DNA of 64,000 nucleotides, from positions 1 through 64,000 of the forward strand of contig PKWM01000015.1 of NCBI GenBank assembly GCA_003133245.1, read 5' to 3'. The DNA is from Rhodoferax sp. GTDB lineage: Bacteria; Pseudomonadota; Gammaproteobacteria; Burkholderiales; Burkholderiaceae_C. Below the pieces are notes generated by a model that was given only the letters and a program-made list of their open reading frames with translations, did no database searches and was not told the DNA's origin. Position 1 is the stretch's first letter. Each line of letters opens with the position of its first letter. This document shows positions 3,765-11,182 of this stretch, one piece after another. Position numbers and translations under genes: made by a program.

Positions 3765-5825
3765 GTGAGACAGGAATTTCAAGCTCAAAGCGCGAACGTT
3801 GGCTCGTTGCAGGTGTTGCTGCCGGCGGAGCGTTCCCCATCGACCGTGCGTCGGCGCACCCTCTGGAGTTCGCTGGTGTTGCTGGTGGCGGCCTTGCTCG
3901 CCATGCTGGTCTGGCTGGCCGGCATCTATGAGGCCAACCAGGTGCAGGCCCGGCTCGATCGCGATGTGGCCGAGGCCGTGAGCGACGTCCGGGCCGTCTT
4001 CGCGCACAACGCTCAGGAACTACAGGCGCTTCAGTACACTCACCCAACACCCAACACATGGATGATCGATGCCGGCACCATGCTGCGTGAACACCGCGAA
4101 ATCCTGCGCATCGAATGGCGCGACAGCACGCTGCGGTTGCAGGCTCATGTGGACACTCCGTTTCGCGTGCCCGCGTTTGATCACCAGGGGCGCAGCGACG
4201 TTCAGTCGGAGGTCGCTGCGGCCTGCGCCAACGCCCGGCGCTTCAGCGGACCGGCCTATGCCAGCAGTTATTTCGTGCCCATGGTCGATGGCCTGGGACT
4301 GGAAGTCATGGAGTTCTGCCTGCCCCTGCAAAGCGGCGCCAATGTGACCGGCTATCTGATCGCCTCCTACGCCTTGCGTGACGTACTTGAGGGTTCGCTG
4401 ACGCGTCCGATGACGAAAAACTACCAAGTATCCTTTACCGAGGGCGACGGCACCCGGCTCGCCGTGTTTGGCTCGATCGGGCGCGGCAGCCGCATCTTCA
4501 CGGCGCGCCAACTGATGAATTTGCCGGGAACGTCCATGGTGCTGCGCATGGACAGTTGGCGCGCTACCCCCGACCTGTTTCCCAATGTGCTGACGGCGCT
4601 GGTGACCGCGATGTCGATCGCCCTGGTTTCGGTGCTGGCGCTGCTGGGCGAGGACATGCGCCGGCGTTTCAAGGCGGAGCACGATCTGGCCGATATGCTG
4701 GCATTTCGCAAGGCGATGGAGGATTCGCTGGTGACGGGTTTGCGCGCACGCGATCTACAAGGCCACACCACCTATGTCAATCCGGCCTTTTGCCAGATGG
4801 TCGGATTCTCGGCTGACGAATTGCTGGCGCCTGGCACGCCAGCGCCATACTGGCCGCCGGAATGCAGTGAAGAATACCGGCAGCGCCAGCTTGTTCGCCA
4901 CGCTGGAAACCTGCCGCCGCGCGAGGGCTACGAGTCGGTGTTCATGCGCAAGGACGGCTCCCGCTTTCCGGTCCTTGTTATTGAAGCGCCGCTCATCAAC
5001 GCGCAAGGTGCGCAGAGCGGATGGATGAGCGCGCTGCTCGATATCAGCGAGCAGCGCCGCGTGGAGGAGTTGTCACGCGCCGGACTGGAGCGCCTGCAGG
5101 CCACCGCGCGCCTGGCGACCGTGGGGGAAATGGCTTCCCTGCTGAGTCACGAACTGAACCAGCCCCTGGCCGTCATTTCGGGCTATGCCGCGGGTTCCCT
5201 CAATCTGTTGCGCGCAGATCCGCAGGGAGCCGTACCAATTGGCTCCGAGGTGAGATTGGCGCTACAGCGTATTGCCGAGCAGGCCGAGCGCGCCGGCAAG
5301 GTCATTAAAAGCGTGCATGACTATGTGCGCCGACGCGACCAGGTGCGTGAGGCGGTGGCCCCGCAGGCCTTGCTCGATGCCATCCTGCCGCTGGTTTACC
5401 TACAGGCGCGCCAATTGTCGGTCCGGGTGCAGGCCGAAGTGGAACCGGGAACGCCGTCCGTGCAGTGCGACCGGACCATGGTTGAGCAGGTCCTGCTCAA
5501 CCTGGCCCGCAACGCCATGCAGGCCATGGATTCGCCGAAGATTCTGGAGCGCAGCCTGCTGATCGACGTGCGCCTCGCCAACACCCATGGCACCAGCAAG
5601 AAATGGGTTGAATTCTCGGTAGCCGATCTTGGCGGGGGCATCGGGCCTGAGGTGCAGCAGCAACTGTTCAAGCCGTTCTTCACCACCAAGACCGAAGGCA
5701 TGGGTCTGGGCCTGAGTCTTTGCCGCACGGTTGTGGAGCAACACGGCGGCGCCCTAGAGTTTGCGGCCAATTCTCCGCACGGCACCGTTTTCACTTTCAC
5801 CTTGCCGGCCGCCGGCGTGGCATAA
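3765..5825 (+). CDS. Membrane sensor histidine kinase, DctS/FixL-like, with PAS domain
   Basis: A 686-residue sensor kinase. Visible parts in order: membrane segment at about 26-48; periplasmic region to about 270 (a DctB/DctS-type extracellular sensor); second membrane segment at about 272-295; PAS domain at about 310-430 (VNPAFCQMVGFSADEL); dimerisation/phosphoacceptor helix with His462 in LLSHELNQPLAVIS; and an ATPase domain with N-box LLNLARNAMQAM, G1 box DLGGGIG and G2 box GMGLGLSLC. It starts at GTG 3765. The response regulator gene follows after 9 bases. Family logic and position next to tctBA suggest that it senses a carboxylate and controls that transporter. Confidence 0.9.
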   Translation: MRQEFQAQSANVGSLQVLLPAERSPSTVRRRTLWSSLVLLVAALLAMLVWLAGIYEANQVQARLDRDVAEAVSDVRAVFAHNAQELQALQYTHPTPNTWMIDAGTMLREHREILRIEWRDSTLRLQAHVDTPFRVPAFDHQGRSDVQSEVAAACANARRFSGPAYASSYFVPMVDGLGLEVMEFCLPLQSGANVTGYLIASYALRDVLEGSLTRPMTKNYQVSFTEGDGTRLAVFGSIGRGSRIFTARQLMNLPGTSMVLRMDSWRATPDLFPNVLTALVTAMSIALVSVLALLGEDMRRRFKAEHDLADMLAFRKAMEDSLVTGLRARDLQGHTTYVNPAFCQMVGFSADELLAPGTPAPYWPPECSEEYRQRQLVRHAGNLPPREGYESVFMRKDGSRFPVLVIEAPLINAQGAQSGWMSALLDISEQRRVEELSRAGLERLQATARLATVGEMASLLSHELNQPLAVISGYAAGSLNLLRADPQGAVPIGSEVRLALQRIAEQAERAGKVIKSVHDYVRRRDQVREAVAPQALLDAILPLVYLQARQLSVRVQAEVEPGTPSVQCDRTMVEQVLLNLARNAMQAMDSPKILERSLLIDVRLANTHGTSKKWVEFSVADLGGGIGPEVQQQLFKPFFTTKTEGMGLGLSLCRTVVEQHGGALEFAANSPHGTVFTFTLPAAGVA

Positions 5826-5834
5826 CATCGCACC

Positions 5835-6473
5835 ATGCAACCTGTGATCGACGCCCGTACCTTTATCGTGGACGATGACGCCAGCGTGCGCGAAGCGTTG
5901 GCCTGGCTGCTGCGCTCACGGCGTTTGCACAGCGAGGTTTTCGACAGCGCCGAAGCGTTTCAGCAGCAGTTCGTTGGCGCGCCGGGTGCGGCATCGGACC
6001 AGCCCTGCTGCCTGTTGCTCGATGTGCGCATGCCGGGCTTGAGCGGGCTGGCGCTGTTTGACTGGCTGATCGAGCGCCAGTTGCACCTGATCATGCCGGT
6101 GATATTTCTGACCGGTCACGCTGACGTGCCAACGGCGGTGGATGCGGTCAGACGTGGCGCTTTCGATTTCTGCGAAAAGCCGTATTCCGGCAATGCATTG
6201 GTGGACCGGGTGGAACAGGCGCTGGCGCAATCAGCGCTATTGCTGCAGGCACGTCGCCAGGCGGTCCGGGTACGCACGCGCCAGGCCGATTTGACCGAGC
6301 GCGATCGCGACGTGATGCGTCTGGTGGTGGAGGGCTTGCCCAACAAACTGATTGCCGACCGGCTCAACATCAGTATCCGGACCGTCGAAGTGCACCGCTC
6401 GCGCGTCTTCCACAAAATGGAAGTCACGTCGGCGGTAGAGCTTGCCAACCTGCTGCGCGATGAACCGGGATGA
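5835..6473 (+). CDS. FixJ/DctR-family two-component response regulator
   Basis: Response regulator of 212 residues: an N-terminal receiver domain with acidic pocket DDD near residue 12, phosphoacceptor Asp63 in LLLDVRMPGLSG, switch Thr in FLTGHAD and Lys in CEKPYSG, then a LuxR/FixJ-type helix-turn-helix at about 150-205 (LTERDRDVMRLVVEGLPNK, then SIRTVEVHRSRV). Same operon as the kinase, with a 9-base gap. It probably activates the TTT transporter genes. A GC-rich hairpin at 6505-6523 ends the operon, and the integrated element begins immediately beyond. Confidence 0.92.
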   Translation: MQPVIDARTFIVDDDASVREALAWLLRSRRLHSEVFDSAEAFQQQFVGAPGAASDQPCCLLLDVRMPGLSGLALFDWLIERQLHLIMPVIFLTGHADVPTAVDAVRRGAFDFCEKPYSGNALVDRVEQALAQSALLLQARRQAVRVRTRQADLTERDRDVMRLVVEGLPNKLIADRLNISIRTVEVHRSRVFHKMEVTSAVELANLLRDEPG

Positions 6474-6523: not shown

Positions 6524-6564
6524 TTTGCCAAAAAAGAACCTCTCACTCGGAAGGGTTCATACTC

Positions 6565-6580
6565 ACTGGCGGAGAGAGTG
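6565..6580. repeat. Left attachment repeat (attL)
   Basis: Sixteen bases identical to 11093-11108, the CCA end and acceptor/T-stem of the tRNA-Ser gene. It marks the left boundary of the element, 145 bases before the integrase start. Confidence 0.85.
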
Positions 6581-6660
6581 TCCTTTCCGTCTAACTTGCA
6601 CGTAATCCCGATTTCTATCATTCTCCTGTTTTTACCAATGAAAATAAATAATTGATTGTC

Positions 6661-6689
6661 TTGCGTGGCATCACGTAACCCCATATAAT
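6661..6689 (+). promoter_or_regulatory. Integrase promoter
   Basis: TTGCGT at 6661-6666, exact 17-base spacer, perfect TATAAT at 6684-6689, 35 bases before the integrase ATG. A purine-rich ribosome site AAAGGGG lies just before that ATG. Confidence 0.6.
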
Positions 6690-6724
6690 CGCACTCAACA
6701 ACATGGGTAAGAAAGGGGTCACAA

Positions 6725-7957
6725 ATGACACGTCGAGTTCGAATCCTGAATGCGCGACAGGTGGAAACGGTCAAAACGCCGGGTTATTTTTTCGATGGTG
6801 CTGGCCTGTACCTGCAAGTTGCCAAAGGCGGCAGCAAGTCCTGGGTACTGCGCTATGCCGTCAACAAGCGGCCGCGTGAAATGGGTTTAGGTTCACTGGT
6901 CACCTTCACGCTGGCAGAGGCGCGAGACCGTGCTACCAAGTACCGGCAGATGGTGGCTGACGGTATCGACCCGATTGATGATCGCAAGGCGTCCCTACTG
7001 ACCCGGCGCATGGCTGAGGCCAACGTCATCACGTTCGATAAAGCGGCCGACAAGTTCATTCAAGCCAACAAATCCGGCTGGCGCAATGCCAAGCATGAAG
7101 ACCAATGGCGCAACACCTTGAAAACTTATGCCAGTCCGGTGATCGGTGATCTATCGGTGGCACTGGTAACGACCGCTCACGTTATGCGGATTTTGGAGCC
7201 GATATGGACAACCAAAACCGAGACGGCAACGCGGGTTCGCGGCCGCATTGAAAAGATTCTCGATTGGGCAAAGGTGCAAGGCTATCGCAGCGGAGACAAC
7301 CCGGCCGCATGGCGTGGACACTTAAGCGAAGCCTTACCGAAGCCGTCCAAGGTGGCAACAGAGGCACATCATGCAGCCCTGCCCTGGCTTGAAATCGGCG
7401 CGTTTATGGTGGCTTTGCAGGCTATGCCTGGGCTTGCTGCAAGGGCGCTGGAGATCATCATTCTCTGCGCTACCCGTACCAGTGAGGCGCTTAACGCCAA
7501 GTGGACAGAGTTCGACCTGGACGCTGGATTGTGGACTATCCCCAAAGAACGAATGAAGTCTTTTCGTGAACACCGAGTCCCATTGTCCGCATCGGCAATT
7601 CGAATCCTGCGTGATCTGCCACACGTAAATGAGTTTGTATTCCCTGGCGCAAAAGAAAACACGGCGCTATCGAATATGAGTTGTCTCGCAGTTCTTAAGC
7701 GCATGGATCGCGCTGATCTGACTGTGCATGGATTTAGATCGACTTTTCGTGATTGGGTATCGGAGTCAACCGCTTACCCCCGCGACGTGGCAGAGATGGC
7801 CCTGGCCCACACCATCGAGGATAAATCCGAAGCCGCTTACCGGCGCGGCGACTTACTCGAAAAACGACGCGCCATGATGCAAGCCTGGGCGAAATTCTGC
7901 GACCTACCCGCCAAGTCTGGCGACGTGGTGGCGATACGGGCGAAGGTGGCAGCATGA
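6725..7957 (+). CDS. int: P4-type tyrosine integrase (DUF4102 arm-binding domain)
   Basis: A 410-residue site-specific recombinase. The N-terminal arm-binding domain (about 1-100) contains GAGLYLQVAKGGSKSWVLRY, the P4/DUF4102 signature. A core-binding domain follows (about 100-210). The catalytic domain has Arg near 250 (CATRTSEALNAKW), His-x-x-Arg near 336 (HGFRSTFRDW), a second His in LAHTIEDKSEAAY and the nucleophile Tyr near 371. All catalytic residues are present, so it may be active. The family recombines at tRNA 3' ends, matching the att repeat. The gene sits at the end of the element away from the intact tRNA, the less common arrangement. The stop overlaps the next gene by 4 bases (ATGA). 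Confidence 0.95.
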   Translation: MTRRVRILNARQVETVKTPGYFFDGAGLYLQVAKGGSKSWVLRYAVNKRPREMGLGSLVTFTLAEARDRATKYRQMVADGIDPIDDRKASLLTRRMAEANVITFDKAADKFIQANKSGWRNAKHEDQWRNTLKTYASPVIGDLSVALVTTAHVMRILEPIWTTKTETATRVRGRIEKILDWAKVQGYRSGDNPAAWRGHLSEALPKPSKVATEAHHAALPWLEIGAFMVALQAMPGLAARALEIIILCATRTSEALNAKWTEFDLDAGLWTIPKERMKSFREHRVPLSASAIRILRDLPHVNEFVFPGAKENTALSNMSCLAVLKRMDRADLTVHGFRSTFRDWVSESTAYPRDVAEMALAHTIEDKSEAAYRRGDLLEKRRAMMQAWAKFCDLPAKSGDVVAIRAKVAA

Positions 7958-8676
7958 AACCGATTGACTGGCGAAAGCTTGAAAATTATCCCGGCTTGCC
8001 ACACTGGGCGGACTCATCAAGTCGGTGGGCTTGGGAATTTATGCGACGCAATGCCGAGTATGAAGTTGACCGCGAGCGCTGGCCCGCAGCTTGGGGCGAT
8101 GGGCTTGACCCGGCTGATGAGGCGTATCAGTTACGGCGCGAACTCGCGGACAAGTGGGGTGTTACCTGTCGCGCAAAGCATTGGCCTGAATCAGATAATG
8201 CACAAGGCTGGCAACGGTTTATTTTTGGATTGCATCAACTGATGGGGTTTGCCGGTGCAGACGCTGGCGAACCGGGACACGTTCGGCGAAGCGGAGAGCA
8301 ATGGGAAGAATATTTGCAAGTGAGACGAAGCGAAGTGTGGGTGCGTTTCGATCTTGAGGAAAAACTAGATCAACAACTTCAACACGCCGGAAAATATTTG
8401 AAAGATGTTCGGGAATATTTGGGGATAACGCCGCCTATACATCGGCTTCGTAAACCTGAAAAATTGCAGCAATATTTGAGGGTTTGGGACGCGACACAAG
8501 CCAATACGACAAGCGCGGAAATTGCAAAGGAACTGTATCCTGGAATGCCAAATACCTACCCGGAATTTTCTGGAAACGATCAAGTACGCAAAGACTTGAG
8601 CGCAGCTAACAAATTGATCGACTTCGGATTTTTAGCGCTGAAAATCACCCCCCCGGAAGCTAATAGGGTGCGTTAG
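7954..8676 (+). CDS. DUF6499-like protein of the satellite
   Basis: A 240-residue protein. Near residue 20 it has SSSRWAWEFMRRNAEYEVD, the pattern of DUF6499 (a short N-terminal domain found next to DUF2285 in proteobacterial mobile elements). The C-terminal third (about 165-235) contains TSAEIAKELYPG and reads like a helix-turn-helix. A DNA-binding regulatory role is possible but unproven. It starts inside the integrase stop (ATGA overlap), so it is co-translated with int. The last 400 bases are richer in A/T than the integrase, consistent with foreign origin. Confidence 0.7.
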   Translation: MKPIDWRKLENYPGLPHWADSSSRWAWEFMRRNAEYEVDRERWPAAWGDGLDPADEAYQLRRELADKWGVTCRAKHWPESDNAQGWQRFIFGLHQLMGFAGADAGEPGHVRRSGEQWEEYLQVRRSEVWVRFDLEEKLDQQLQHAGKYLKDVREYLGITPPIHRLRKPEKLQQYLRVWDATQANTTSAEIAKELYPGMPNTYPEFSGNDQVRKDLSAANKLIDFGFLALKITPPEANRVR

Positions 8677-8710
8677 ATTCCTTATACACGCCAGAAAATA
8701 CGACGTTTAC

Positions 8711-8759
8711 TCGCTTTCATTACGCAAGCCAATAGGCAACGCGGGACACATGAAAGCGA
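8711..8759 (+). promoter_or_regulatory. Inverted repeat over the alpA leader
   Basis: Perfect 10-bp arms TCGCTTTCAT (8711-8720) and ATGAAAGCGA (8750-8759) separated by 29 nt. The right arm ends three bases before the alpA ATG and covers its only purine-rich ribosome site. It could be an operator for AlpA autoregulation or an RNA stem that hides the ribosome site. Confidence 0.45.
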
Positions 8760-8762
8760 TAA

Positions 8763-8954
8763 ATGGCATCACAAAGTTACCGGCCAAAACAAGCCGCCGA
8801 ATTATTGGGCATCGGCACCGCGACACTCTGGCGCTGGATTAAAGAGAGGCCGGATTTTCCTCGTCCAATTCGACTGAGCGCACGCTGCACCGTCATACCC
8901 GGTGATAAATTGATTGAATGGCGTGACGCGCAGGGCGCAAAGGTGGCAGCTTAA
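8763..8954 (+). CDS. AlpA-like excisionase/regulator
   Basis: A 63-residue winged-helix protein of the AlpA/MerR-like group: PKQAAELLGIGTATLWRWI, then a wing with FPRPIRLSAR, the usual AlpA pattern. In P4-like islands AlpA proteins control integrase expression and excision. It overlaps the next gene by one base (TAATG). The leader carries the inverted repeat described at 8711-8759. Confidence 0.85.
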   Translation: MASQSYRPKQAAELLGIGTATLWRWIKERPDFPRPIRLSARCTVIPGDKLIEWRDAQGAKVAA

Positions 8955-9208
8955 TGAGCGGCCACGAAAAAGCGGCCGGGATGCTGGACACATCCGGGGC
9001 CGCTCAGGAAACAAATCAACACGCCGATTCTAGCCACTTTCGCCAACACGAAGCAACCACGATCGCGCAACTGGCGATGAAAGGCCAAGTCGTTACTCGC
9101 GGCAGCAACAATGATTTTTTTGTAGGCAAGTGGGGCCTGATCCGGCACTGTCCGAGCTACGCTGATCTGGTGGCGTTCGCTCTGATGGTGGGGGTCAATC
9201 ATGGGTGA
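8954..9208 (+). CDS. Small satellite protein of unknown function (84 aa)
   Basis: No named domain recognised. The C-terminal half (TIAQLAMKGQVVTRGSNNDF, then a WGL-x-RHC segment) looks like short proteins found between alpA and primase genes in Burkholderiales islands, from recall only. It overlaps alpA by one base and the HNH-fusion gene by eight, so it is surely translated with them. Function unknown. Confidence 0.7.
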   Translation: MSGHEKAAGMLDTSGAAQETNQHADSSHFRQHEATTIAQLAMKGQVVTRGSNNDFFVGKWGLIRHCPSYADLVAFALMVGVNHG

Positions 9209-9659
9209 ATATCTCCGCGACAACCTGCCCGATCCAATCGCCTATTTTGAAGGCGAAGGCTTGAAACTTGATGGCCGTGGAAAGTGGCGCACCACTGAAT
9301 GCCGGTTTCATGGTGGCAGTGATTCCATGCGCGTCAACACAGCATCAGGTGGGCACGCGCAGTGTGGCTTGTCAGTCCTAGTGCGCTCGCGCAGTTGGCA
9401 GCAGGCGCGTGAAGGCTGGCTACGCAAGCATCCATTGTGCGAGATGTGCATGGCTGAGACACCACAGCGGTTAACGGCAGCAACTTTGATAGATCACATC
9501 ATTCCCCATCGTGGGGATAAGGTTCTATTCTGGGCGGCCGATACGAATTGGCAAAGTTTGTGCAGGCAGCATCACGACGTCAAGACAGCACAAGAGGATG
9601 GCAAGACGATCAAGCCGCGCGTGACAATTTCAATTGACGGCTGGCCAATGCACCAATGA
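9201..9659 (+). CDS. Primase zinc-finger N-terminus fused to HNH endonuclease
   Basis: A 152-residue chimera. Residues 1-52 (DPIAYFEGEGLKLDGRGKWR, then CRFHGGSDSMRVNTASGG) match the start of a P4-type satellite primase with its CHC2-type zinc finger: Cys34 and His37 are present but the later CxxC pair is gone. From about residue 62 the protein becomes a phage HNH endonuclease: SWQQAREGWLRKHPLCEMC, Asp98-His99 in LIDHIIPHRGD, Asn116, and His124-His125 in LCRQHHD, so the nuclease residues look complete. Phage HNH proteins of this type sit beside terminase genes and assist cos cleavage, and a small-terminase-like gene follows here. Best explained by a deletion that removed the primase body. Confidence 0.8.
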   Translation: MGEYLRDNLPDPIAYFEGEGLKLDGRGKWRTTECRFHGGSDSMRVNTASGGHAQCGLSVLVRSRSWQQAREGWLRKHPLCEMCMAETPQRLTAATLIDHIIPHRGDKVLFWAADTNWQSLCRQHHDVKTAQEDGKTIKPRVTISIDGWPMHQ

Positions 9660-9694
9660 TGGGCAGGGCTATCGCAAAGTGCTATTTGCCTCGA

Positions 9695-9713
9695 CTCTAG
9701 ACCGCATGGTCCC
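9695..9713 (+). repeat. Intergenic repeat, copy 1
   Basis: CTCTAGACCG, two bases, TGGT, one base, CC. The same pattern recurs at 10391-10409. A GGGCAGG heptamer lies about 34 bases upstream, directly after the preceding stop codon. GACC/GGTC inside the repeat can pair. Confidence 0.6.
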
Positions 9714-9744
9714 ATTACTTTCACCAACATGGAGATTTTCAACA

Positions 9745-10173
9745 ATGAAAAAGCCTACCCTGCTGCACTTCAAAGCTCTGGCTGATCGCGCCAACCCGCG
9801 TTTACAGCCGCCTGACACCCTCAACGACGCTCAGAAGGTGATCTGGCACCAGACCGTCGATAACCTGCCCGATGACTGGTTTTCGTTGGAGCAAACCCCG
9901 ATGCTGGTGGCGTATTGCCAGCACGTTGCCCGCGCCGCTCAGATCGAGGCGGCACTGGCTACGCTTGATCCGTTGAGTGACCTGGACACGTTCGATAAGT
10001 TGGCAAAACTCGCCGCTGGTGAATCAGCAAAAGTTGCCATGTTCGCCCGTTCAATGCGGTTGACGCAACAGTCAAGGCTTAAGGCAGAGACAGCACAGAG
10101 CCATGGTGCTGGTGCTGCGAGCGCCGCCGCCGTTGGCGCAGACAAATACTTTGATGATCTGATCGCACATTGA
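9745..10173 (+). CDS. Phage terminase small-subunit-like protein
   Basis: A 142-residue protein starting at ATG 9745. The N-terminal half (LNDAQKVIWHQTVDNLPDDW, then PMLVAYCQHVARAAQIEAAL) is the helical pattern of phage terminase small subunits of the P27 type, and the Lys/Ala/Gln-rich tail is also typical. It follows an HNH gene as in cos-type phages, but no large terminase follows. In satellites a private TerS can redirect a helper phage's packaging to satellite DNA; this role is inferred. Confidence 0.75.
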   Translation: MKKPTLLHFKALADRANPRLQPPDTLNDAQKVIWHQTVDNLPDDWFSLEQTPMLVAYCQHVARAAQIEAALATLDPLSDLDTFDKLAKLAAGESAKVAMFARSMRLTQQSRLKAETAQSHGAGAASAAAVGADKYFDDLIAH

Positions 10174-10183
10174 GAGGCACACC

Positions 10184-10360
10184 ATGACACTCGAAAAACT
10201 TCACGAAGCCACAAAAGCCGCCTTGACCGACCTTGAACGACGGATCCGTGAATTACGCGACCAAGCGCACATCGACCGCGCTGAAATTGGTGATCTATGC
10301 GACCGGCTTGACGCATTCGAGCAACGCCTTGCTGCACCCGCCGCTGACGGCACAGACTAG
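10184..10360 (+). CDS. Small coiled-coil protein (58 aa)
   Basis: ATG at 10184, ten bases after the terS-like stop with a GAGAGG ribosome site, TAG at 10358-10360. The product is highly charged with heptad-like spacing (LTDLERRIRELRDQAHIDRA, then EIGDLCDRLDAFEQRL), so probably one long coiled-coil helix. No family recognised. Tight spacing and good codon use support a real gene. Confidence 0.65.
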   Translation: MTLEKLHEATKAALTDLERRIRELRDQAHIDRAEIGDLCDRLDAFEQRLAAPAADGTD

Positions 10361-10390
10361 GGGCAGGCAATAAGAGTGCAGTTCCTATTG

Positions 10391-10409
10391 CTCTAGACCG
10401 ACTGGTTCC
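10391..10409 (+). repeat. Intergenic repeat, copy 2
   Basis: CTCTAGACCG, AC, TGGT, T, CC: second copy of the motif at 9695-9713, again about 30 bases after a GGGCAGG that directly follows a stop codon, and again ahead of a small-terminase-like gene. Confidence 0.6.
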
Positions 10410-10447
10410 GCATACAGACAATAAAAACCGTTTTCAAAGGAAATCAA

Positions 10448-10747
10448 ATGAGTGGAAAACCCGGTAGAAGTGGTGGCGCTCGCCCTGGTGCCGGACGGCC
10501 AAAAAAGCCACCCGAGAAAAATATTCTGATAAAGGGCAGCGACATGCTCAAACTATTGCAGGATGTAGCACTTGGCCGGATCGATGCCAGCGCGCTACAG
10601 GTGCGGGCGGCCATTGCAGCGGTGCAGTACACGCACACGAAAAAGGGCGACGGCAAAAAAGCAGACAAGCAGGACGCTGCAAAGGTGGCCAGTGTTGGGA
10701 AATTCGCACCGGCCGCGCCGCCTAAACTGGTTTACAGCAACAGGTGA
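10448..10747 (+). CDS. Second small-terminase-like protein (99 aa)
   Basis: N-terminus GGARPGAGRPKKPPEKN is the basic, Gly-rich lead common to many phage small terminase subunits, followed by a helix with LQVRAAIAAVQYTHTKKGDG and a C-terminal KFAPAAPPKL segment, a combination recalled from Burkholderiales prophage terminase small subunits. It is separated from the first terS-like gene by a 58-aa gene and repeat copy 2. A hairpin terminator follows at 10777. Confidence 0.65.
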   Translation: MSGKPGRSGGARPGAGRPKKPPEKNILIKGSDMLKLLQDVALGRIDASALQVRAAIAAVQYTHTKKGDGKKADKQDAAKVASVGKFAPAAPPKLVYSNR

Positions 10748-10776
10748 CGATCGCCGCAACCTGGACGCACAGACAG

Positions 10777-10800
10777 ACCCGCCATTGCGCGGGTTTTCTT
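10777..10800 (+). terminator. Terminator at end of the satellite gene block
   Basis: ACCCGC / GCGGGT stem with a six-base loop followed by TTTCTT, 30 bases after the last satellite gene. Confidence 0.7.
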
Positions 10801-11092
10801 TGGCCTGGTGCAACCACTACCGCGCGCGAGGGGTGACCTTTTGACCTCTTCGCATCATGGGAAGAGGTTAAGGTACGGCCGCACGCGTGATGGTAAAACG
10901 GAGTCGCACGATGCAACCCCGTTACCGCCCGCCTGATGATCCGGCACCGAGGGGCAGTGTCAAAGTTGACAACCCGATGGCACGGGACCGCAGCTCAGCT
11001 AAATTTTTGCGCGTGCGAATCAGAAAAATGGTTTTTCACTGCATGGGTGAAAACGTGGGTAAATCGCTATTTTTTCAAATTCTCAGAGGGGA
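10801..11092. other. Non-coding right end of the satellite
   Basis: No supported gene in 292 bases. It holds an interrupted hairpin (ACCTT and ACCTCTTC at 10836-10851 against GAAGAGGT and AAGGT at 10861-10874), a palindrome TGTCAA-AG-TTGACA at 10958-10971, and the repeated words ATGGGTGAAA and GTGGGTAAA at 11043-11063, which resemble integrase arm-site spacing near attR. An origin or integrase/Xis binding region is possible. Confidence 0.45.
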
Positions 11093-11108
11093 ACTGGCGG
11101 AGAGAGTG
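11093..11108. repeat. Right attachment repeat (attR) inside tRNA-Ser
   Basis: Sixteen bases identical to 6565-6580. It covers the encoded CCA, discriminator, acceptor 3' strand and first T-stem bases of the minus-strand tRNA-Ser. Confidence 0.85.
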
Positions 11109-11182
11109 GGATTCGAACCCACGGTACCTTGCGGTACGCCTGATTTCGAGTCAGGTACATTCGGCCACTCTGCCATCTCTCC
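11095..11182 (-). tRNA. tRNA-Ser (anticodon CGA)
   Basis: Read on the minus strand: acceptor GGAGAGA pairs with TCTCTCC, anticodon arm CCTGA-CTCGAAA-TCAGG gives anticodon CGA (codon UCG), a long serine-type variable arm GTACC-GCAA-GGTAC, T arm GTGGG-TTCGAAT-CCCAC, discriminator G and encoded CCA; 88 nt in all. Its 3' end is the integration site of the element to its left. trpS lies upstream on the same strand. Confidence 0.95.

Follow-up and report, generated by a model that had tools for sequence, protein, structure and literature searches.

A 4.5-kb PICI-like element with two terminase small-subunit genes at tRNA-Ser(CGA) of a Rhodoferax genome appears to have lost its replication module

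We analysed a 64,000-nucleotide stretch of DNA from Rhodoferax sp. (contig PKWM01000015.1, positions 1 to 64,000; hereafter the window), in which a first-pass annotation had described a compact phage-satellite-like element with exact 16-bp direct repeats at both ends, in tRNA-Ser(CGA). The ends were as described. The repeat, ACTGGCGGAGAGAGTG, is present in identical copies at 6565-6580 and 11093-11108, with an arithmetical chance expectation for a given 16-mer of ~3e-5 (64 kb, both strands). The right copy consists of the final 14 nt of the tRNA-Ser(CGA) gene plus 2 nt, and this gene is the sole tRNA that ARAGORN finds within the window. The repeats bound an element of 4,544 bp, for which the calculated excised circle is 4,528 bp, and the element is present once in its own genome (1 match, 1 genome). 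Its features are given below with those at its borders; ORF stands for open reading frame, TerS and TerL for the small and large terminase subunits, and L numbers denote loci that were compared with the window.

6529-6558, minus strand: terminator-like hairpin followed by T6, left of attL (stem 5, loop 13)
6565-6580, no strand: attL, 16-bp direct repeat
6725-7957, plus strand: int, tyrosine integrase of 410 aa (Pfam matches at 2.6e-32, 9.6e-21 and 8.6e-13)
7954-8676, plus strand: DNA-binding regulator-like gene (RovC_DNA-bd at 2.6e-6, over the cut-off; Trans_reg_dom at 1.5e-4, just under the cut-off)
8763-8954, plus strand: alpA, AlpA-like regulator/excisionase (AlpA/HTH_17 at 5.8e-5 and 1.6e-7; PF05930 over the cut-off)
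8954-9208, plus strand: 84-aa ORF with relatives in elements L008, L009 and L107
9201-9359, plus strand: 5' piece, 53 codons long, of a CHC2 primase zinc-finger gene whose full product has 153 aa (match of residues 1-53 to positions 1-53 in a profile of 153, E 1.3e-29)
9348-9380, plus strand: putative deletion or recombination junction region, inside the fused ORF
9381-9659, plus strand: HNH nuclease core (phrog_2323 at 6.8e-25; relative of PDB 5h0m; Pfam HNH at 7.9e-4, just under the cut-off)
9661-9713, plus strand: cos-like site 1, G-rich tract ... CTCTAGACCGCATGGTCCC; its core lies 46 nt upstream of the TerS1 start codon
9745-10173, plus strand: TerS1, satellite-clade terminase small subunit of 142 aa (phrog_12559 at 2.8e-19)
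10184-10360, plus strand: 58-aa ORF directly after TerS1, as in L013
10354-10409, plus strand: cos-like site 2, GGGGCAGG ... CTCTAGACCGACTGGTTCC; its core lies 53 nt upstream of the TerS2 start codon; the top-scoring site of the window
10448-10747, plus strand: TerS2, phage-type terminase small subunit of 99 aa (phrog_18735 at 2.4e-19)
11093-11108, no strand: attR, 16-bp direct repeat, equal to the 3' end of tRNA-Ser(CGA)
11095-11182, minus strand: tRNA-Ser(CGA), integration target (ARAGORN; Rfam tRNA at 11098-11182)

The eight ORFs are all open, lie on the plus strand and cover 83% of the element. When int was aligned with seven relatives, the R, HxxR, H and Y positions of the catalytic residues were all present. 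The regulator-like gene, which is an addition to the earlier gene list, shares an ATGA overlap with int, and a relative of alpA is found in L091 (7e-38). The integrase, AlpA and the two TerS proteins of that list were recovered with Pfam and PHROG profiles. No replicase, TerL, portal or capsid gene was recognised among the element ORFs, in agreement with the first-pass annotation, nor was a helicase or primase ORF, and queries for TerL, portal, protease and capsid matched none of them.

The primase fragment and the HNH gene, by contrast, had been listed separately and form a single ORF (9201-9659). Separate primase and HNH genes are ruled out by the one reading frame. DNA similarity to intact CHC2 genes ceases at 9332-9347, and among the best 120 of 614 homologs of the fused ORF, 44 cover the N-terminal half, 77 the C-terminal half and only the window protein both. 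The searches place the fused protein on a single contig of 2,472 bases and TerS1 and TerS2 on two contigs, the longest of 122,413 bases, while contig C24 has 98,908 bases; these lengths are weighed neither for nor against the junction. The CHC2 profile has matches in 23 of 89 genomes of the genus including the host, several of them partial. At all eight loci inspected, an ORF encoding 399-670 aa lies next downstream of an intact CHC2 gene. A family test of this ORF took in six of the eight loci (all but L134 and L138) and found it primase- or helicase-like in every case: DUF3987 in L132, AAA_25 in L107 and L142, and primase PHROGs in L133, L135 and L139. Because the CHC2 piece covers positions 1-53 of 153 and intact CHC2 genes precede primase/helicase ORFs elsewhere, a replication module, comprising the remainder of the CHC2 gene and a primase/helicase, has evidently been lost by deletion or recombination. 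Capsid genes were possibly lost with it. Rather than being minimal by design, as had been proposed, the element appears to be a derivative of a larger one.

We next consider the packaging genes. Neither TerS1 nor TerS2 matched Pfam at 0.1, and a PDB sequence search gave no relative for either. The structure model of TerS1 is all-helical (pLDDT 82), and that of TerS2 is poor (pLDDT 70, pTM 0.36). Counting the window's own genome, the TerS1 profile matches 3 of 89 genomes from the genus and 3 of 399 from the order, and TerS2 is found in 2 of the 89. A search with the single TerS1 sequence reached 5 of 399 family genomes, the other four hits being partial or at most 31% identical. TerS1 had no match in plasmids and matched a single phage, PAJU2 (two records).

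The close relatives of TerS1 lie in satellite-like elements. Loci L007-L010, from Rhodoferax, Polaromonas (two loci) and an uncultured betaproteobacterium, carry TerS1 at 58-75% identity, each together with an integrase and a primase/helicase, which is divided between two ORFs in L009 and is otherwise a single ORF of 833-961 aa. Metagenome contigs also hold the TerS1 relatives P0002-P0005, at 81-85% identity. L007 sits at tRNA-Lys (8.9 kb), L008 at tRNA-Arg (8.2 kb) and L009 at tRNA-Thr (8.2 kb); the left end of L010 lies beyond its contig, and the size range of 8.2-8.9 kb covers the other three. Five TerL and two portal queries had no match in the five longest loci that carry close relatives of TerS1, L007-L010 and L013, and TerL was also not found in L011 and L012, both of which are fragments. 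Among the more distant viral loci L014-L043, TerL adjoins TerS in 28 of 30, the exceptions being L015 and L014, the latter extending only a short way past TerS. In a midpoint-rooted FastTree of 42 leaves, the window TerS1 falls in a 22-leaf clade that contains no phage locus (support 0.86) and whose context is known for the window, L008, L010, P0016 (L007) and P0054 (L009) only. Among viral relatives of TerS2, a large ORF lies downstream in 74 of 80 loci, and TerL queries match downstream in 74 of 80. At L013 (5982-7306), a cos-like site and then a TerS of another family (phrog_83) come after TerS1 (81% identical) and the 58-aa ORF; a truncated HNH lies just upstream of TerS1, and no TerL query matched in the 12.6-kb contig. 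Two loci, the window and L013, thus have a tandem of two different TerS genes in which a separate cos-like site precedes each gene.

The cos-like site before each TerS gene is a further addition to the earlier gene list. Both sites have a common layout, a G-rich tract followed after ~30 nt by CTCTAGACCG, and the 90-nt upstreams of TerS1 and TerS2 align over their full length with a score reached in 0 of 5,000 shuffles. The deposited ends of HK97 and D3, which we take to be their physical cohesive ends, lie 14 nt past the start of TGACCG and ACACCG, respectively, in both cases preceded by a G-rich tract and situated in the interval from HNH to TerS. The element sequence has the same order of HNH, cos-like site and TerS, and the core motif. 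The deposited genome of PAJU2, with TerS at 51 and HNH near the opposite end, breaks within TCTAGAC^CGC, and its deposited ends are presumably physical cohesive ends as well; its end region aligned to the TerS1 upstream with a score reached by 12 of 1,000 shuffles. A two-block matrix was then trained on viral TerS2 upstreams with the window excluded. Of 80 loci, 55 had enough upstream sequence and 39 remained after near-duplicates and rows with uncertain starts were dropped; 36 came out of an iterative fit that itself selects for fit, and 35 were used after removal of one duplicate. Among 128,000 positions this matrix gave rank 1 to the TerS2 site and rank 13 to the TerS1 site. When relatives were scanned, the sites before TerS ranked 1-6, on the plus strand, in L013 (two sites), L092, L008, L010, L007 and L009. 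The core [AGT]GACCG is present in 17 of 26 TerS1-type upstreams compared with 3.1 expected, related rows being counted repeatedly. A search for helpers with the exact 20- and 19-nt cos strings gave 0 matches each in viral contigs. In the element's own genome CTAGACCGNNTGG has two matches, both inside the element; the reversed control has five, so this count alone proves nothing. With two TerS genes, an HNH core and two cos-like sites, the element does appear from its sequence to carry its own packaging specificity, as had been suggested.

Relatives of the integrase point to the same kind of element. We compared 17 loci of same-clade integrases, and at five of them (46-53% identity) the integrase adjoins tRNA-Ser:

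L091: tRNA-Ser(GGA), 17-bp repeat, 7.8 kb
L094: tRNA-Ser(GCT), 14-bp repeat, 4.5 kb
L106: tRNA-Ser(TGA), 14-bp repeat, 8.8 kb
L107: tRNA-Ser(CGA) beside trpS, the identical site to that of the window element, 15-bp repeat, 7.5 kb
L108: tRNA-Ser(TGA), no repeat found, short contig

The locus L098 has a distant tRNA-Met. Integrase or TerS1 relatives thus occupy other tRNA-bounded elements of 4.5-10.5 kb, which bears out the satellite-like nature that had been assigned to the element. L107 (5959-13452) is a different 7.5-kb element with a same-clade integrase, CHC2 and an AAA_25 helicase. The tRNA-Ser(CGA)/trpS site is an integration hotspot. L092 (6438-16997) is a 10.5-kb island at tRNA-Asp in the host's genus with a 17-bp repeat. 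It encodes an integrase, a weak CHC2 relative (7e-13), a DUF3987 helicase, an HK97-type capsid, protease and portal, HNH, TerS and a TerL that is 63% identical to that of HK97. From this gene content it looks like a capsid-forming phage-inducible chromosomal island (PICI). The interval between CHC2 and HNH in L092, which is missing in the window, contains the helicase, capsid, protease and portal genes.

The left flank was examined for traces of the site before insertion. Joining the flanks in silico yields a complete tRNA-Ser followed by the T6 hairpin, which starts 8 nt past the tRNA 3' end. By an equal hairpin rule 12 of 21 tRNA-Ser rows of the genus are positive, 11 with a stem score of at least 5, as against 1.6% of random window stretches. 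A stricter promoter and terminator scan did not list the left-flank hairpin and returned nothing exceeding shuffles. Insertion between tRNA-Ser and its terminator would fit the position of the hairpin, but the argument is weak: the hairpin has a stem of 5 bp and a loop of 13 nt and is omitted by the stricter scan, and the response regulator lies elsewhere in relatives. This regulator belongs to a histidine kinase/response regulator pair at window positions 3765-6473, left of attL. The pair is absent beside tRNA-Ser(CGA) in the scanned relatives, and the left flank therefore differs in the Rhodoferax host. The regulator has 16 relatives at 73-86% identity, in 16 of 16 cases on a contig separate from trpS, and the regulator or kinase was found at none of 29 trpS loci of the genus (flank scanned ~1.5 kb or less). 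Hence the search for an empty site in relatives found no orthologous one by synteny.

We then compared the element with characterised satellites. It resembles PICIs of Gram-negative bacteria in its attachment site with direct repeats and own integrase, its AlpA-type regulator and its single, rightward direction of transcription; from the TerS genes and cos-like sites in its sequence, its packaging may be of the cos type as well. Two cos sites, both functional, are described for EcCICFT073 (PMC6092414), which differs in having no TerS homolog where the element has two. PICIs have a pri/rep-ori replication module, whereas the element keeps 53 CHC2 codons and no helicase or primase ORF. A second comparison is with the PICMI elements (phage-inducible chromosomal minimalist islands), of which PICMI115, at 6,110 bp, is termed by its authors the smallest satellite element with characterised activity; its int, overlapping gene and AlpA serve excision and its primase replication, and primase is described there as a core satellite function (PMC10803314). 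PICMI and the element share int, a gene overlapping it by ATGA, alpA, short direct repeats (17 bp in PICMI) and very small size, and the regulator-like gene resembles PICMI iolg in position and int overlap (PMC10803314). PICMI, however, has prim, sits at fis and has no recognised terS, cos or pac (PMC10803314), while the element has no primase, two TerS genes and cos-like sites and lies at tRNA-Ser(CGA). Capsid-forming PICIs encode their own capsid, portal, protease and TerL, none of which is among the element ORFs. The capsid-forming-like L092 shares with the element a 50% identical integrase, the weak CHC2 relative and an HNH directly before TerS, and differs in retaining the helicase, major capsid protein, protease, portal and TerL. 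The TerS1 satellites L007-L010 share TerS1, an integrase and the lack of a TerL match, and differ in retaining a primase/helicase; L008 additionally carries an HK97-type capsid protein, unlike the window element. Because one defining feature of each of the three classes was looked for and was absent, we do not file the element as a PICI, PICMI or capsid-forming PICI. The literature titles and abstracts searched name no TerS satellite of Rhodoferax.

Collectively, these data argue, with a probability of roughly 0.77, that the element is a cos-type, TerS-carrying, PICI-like satellite of a host of the genus Rhodoferax, inserted at the 3' end of tRNA-Ser(CGA), whose replication module was lost between the CHC2 and HNH genes. 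This identity and history are well supported by the comparisons made, and the excision and packaging modules look intact in sequence.

Several observations weigh against this reading. At the insertion site, the left-flank genes do not adjoin tRNA-Ser in relatives; of the 17 integrase loci, 10 have no tRNA found (several are short contigs) and L092 is at tRNA-Asp. Among 89 genus genomes no second element with the identical gene order was found. As for the cos-like sites, both score lower than phage sites. The TerS2 site scores 16.5, and the maxima of 60 shuffled windows average 12.9 and reach 22.0; since shuffled maxima exceed 16.5, it is the place of the site and not its score that carries the cos argument. 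The PAJU2 end region has no significant alignment with the stretch before TerS2 (its score is attained by 193 of 1,000 shuffles), nor has the L092 upstream with either TerS upstream (72 and 112 of 1,000). The core [AGT]GACCG is present in only 19 of 55 TerS2-type upstreams (9.6 expected), in 15 of 55 at the right distance, and the consensus of these upstreams is rather GGAAACC. At the fused ORF, HNH relatives carry ~30 additional residues N-terminal of the core; if these went in a second event, that event would have been in frame too. Finally, the host genome has no match to TerL_ATPase (PF03354) or HK97-capsid (PF05065), other TerL and capsid families not having been searched there.

Some of these points bear on whether the satellite still moves. 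We see about an even chance that it has the origin proposed above but that loss of replication ended its mobility and left a slowly decaying chromosomal remnant. The element lacks primase, the core function described in PMC10803314; no other protein among the best 120 homologs has the CHC2-HNH fusion; the host genome has no TerL_ATPase or HK97-capsid match; and the weaker cos-like sites and the lack of a second such element count for this view as well. Against it, the eight ORFs are open over 83% of the element, the key integrase residues are present, the att repeats are exact, the fusion is in frame and the HNH core is retained. A living, packaging-only 4.5-kb satellite seems unlikely. Such an element, lacking any replication gene, would move by virtue of two complete, different cos-TerS cassettes, one satellite-type and one phage-type, that engage the terminases of two unrelated HK97-like helper groups, and replication would come from the helper or packaging would start in the chromosome.

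Other histories would lead to the same gene order. Recombination may have joined two elements at HNH, one contributing the left half from int to the CHC2 piece and the other the packaging cassette (HNH-cos-TerS1-cos-TerS2), a history that we regard as a serious contender at somewhat less than even odds. L013, too, has a junction inside HNH directly ahead of TerS1, with an 834-aa gene as the partner, and nuclease genes are reported to lie at the edges of regions that phages exchange (PMC10448857). The gene order is accounted for just as well, however, if one deletion occurred in an ancestor resembling L092, where a single interval runs from CHC2 to HNH. That the element is instead what remains of a full temperate prophage after deletion of head and tail genes, the outcome that was to refute a satellite, is improbable. 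The linear genomes of HK97, D3 and PAJU2 also have HNH at one end and TerS with TerL at the other, TerL follows the TerS2 relatives in 74 of 80 viral loci, and L092, with its 50% identical integrase, has a major capsid protein, protease, portal, HNH, TerS and TerL. Yet the att repeats of L092 enclose no more than 10.5 kb, in which no tail gene was recognised, so that L092 is itself like a capsid-forming satellite. CHC2-helicase genes are found in satellite-size elements, but longer elements that encode TerL and a tape-measure protein, such as L139, have them as well. The full prophage remnant is also disfavoured by the close TerS1 relatives L007-L010 and L013, in which no TerL or portal query matched.

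If the proposed satellite is mobile, helper infection would activate AlpA, and Int with AlpA would excise the 4,528-bp circle, by analogy with the excision set of PICMI115. TerS1 or TerS2, together with the HNH core, would then direct an HK97/D3-like TerL of the helper to the cos sites of the element, packaging via cos by analogy with EcCICFT073. The satellite-type TerS1 would recruit helper TerL; TerS2, which is phage-type and has a cos site to itself, may serve a different group of helpers. Element DNA would thereby enter helper heads; by arithmetic, an HK97-size head would take 8 or 9 copies of 4,528 bp (36.2 or 40.8 kb). Since the element has no replicase, helper functions or recombination would be needed to generate such concatemers, unless packaging were initiated in the chromosome. 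A helper of this type would need to infect, because the host genome has no TerL_ATPase or HK97-capsid match. A mobile element would be smaller than PICMI115, and would imply that a satellite can dispense with its own primase while supplying packaging specificity. A dead element would still point to a family of cos-type satellites with TerS genes in Rhodoferax and Polaromonas. Their TerS clade was encountered here in satellite-like elements and their cos-like sites are of the HK97/D3 type, which makes helper prediction from cos sequence testable. The tandem of two different TerS genes poses a concrete question for packaging biology.

Four further observations concern the relatives. Window positions 8964-9011, 48 bp at the beginning of the 84-aa ORF, are 94% identical to L009 6936-6983, and around this stretch L008 and L091 share 33-40 bp at 88-90%; conservation of this kind could reflect a cis site or a conserved peptide. 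L094 (6568-11065) is a 4.5-kb element with an integrase of the same clade, alpA and a 348-aa ORF that has no Pfam or PHROG match at 0.01. L139 (1786-14949) carries int, CHC2, primase, TerS, TerL, a head protease and a tail tape-measure protein (few other ORFs were tested). Finally, L008 (8659-9786) and L132 (7315-8373) encode an HK97-type capsid protein (PF05065 or phrog_10) and have no TerL or portal query match, which resembles the strategy of a lone capsid homolog, such as Ccm of SaPIbov5 (PMC8569155).

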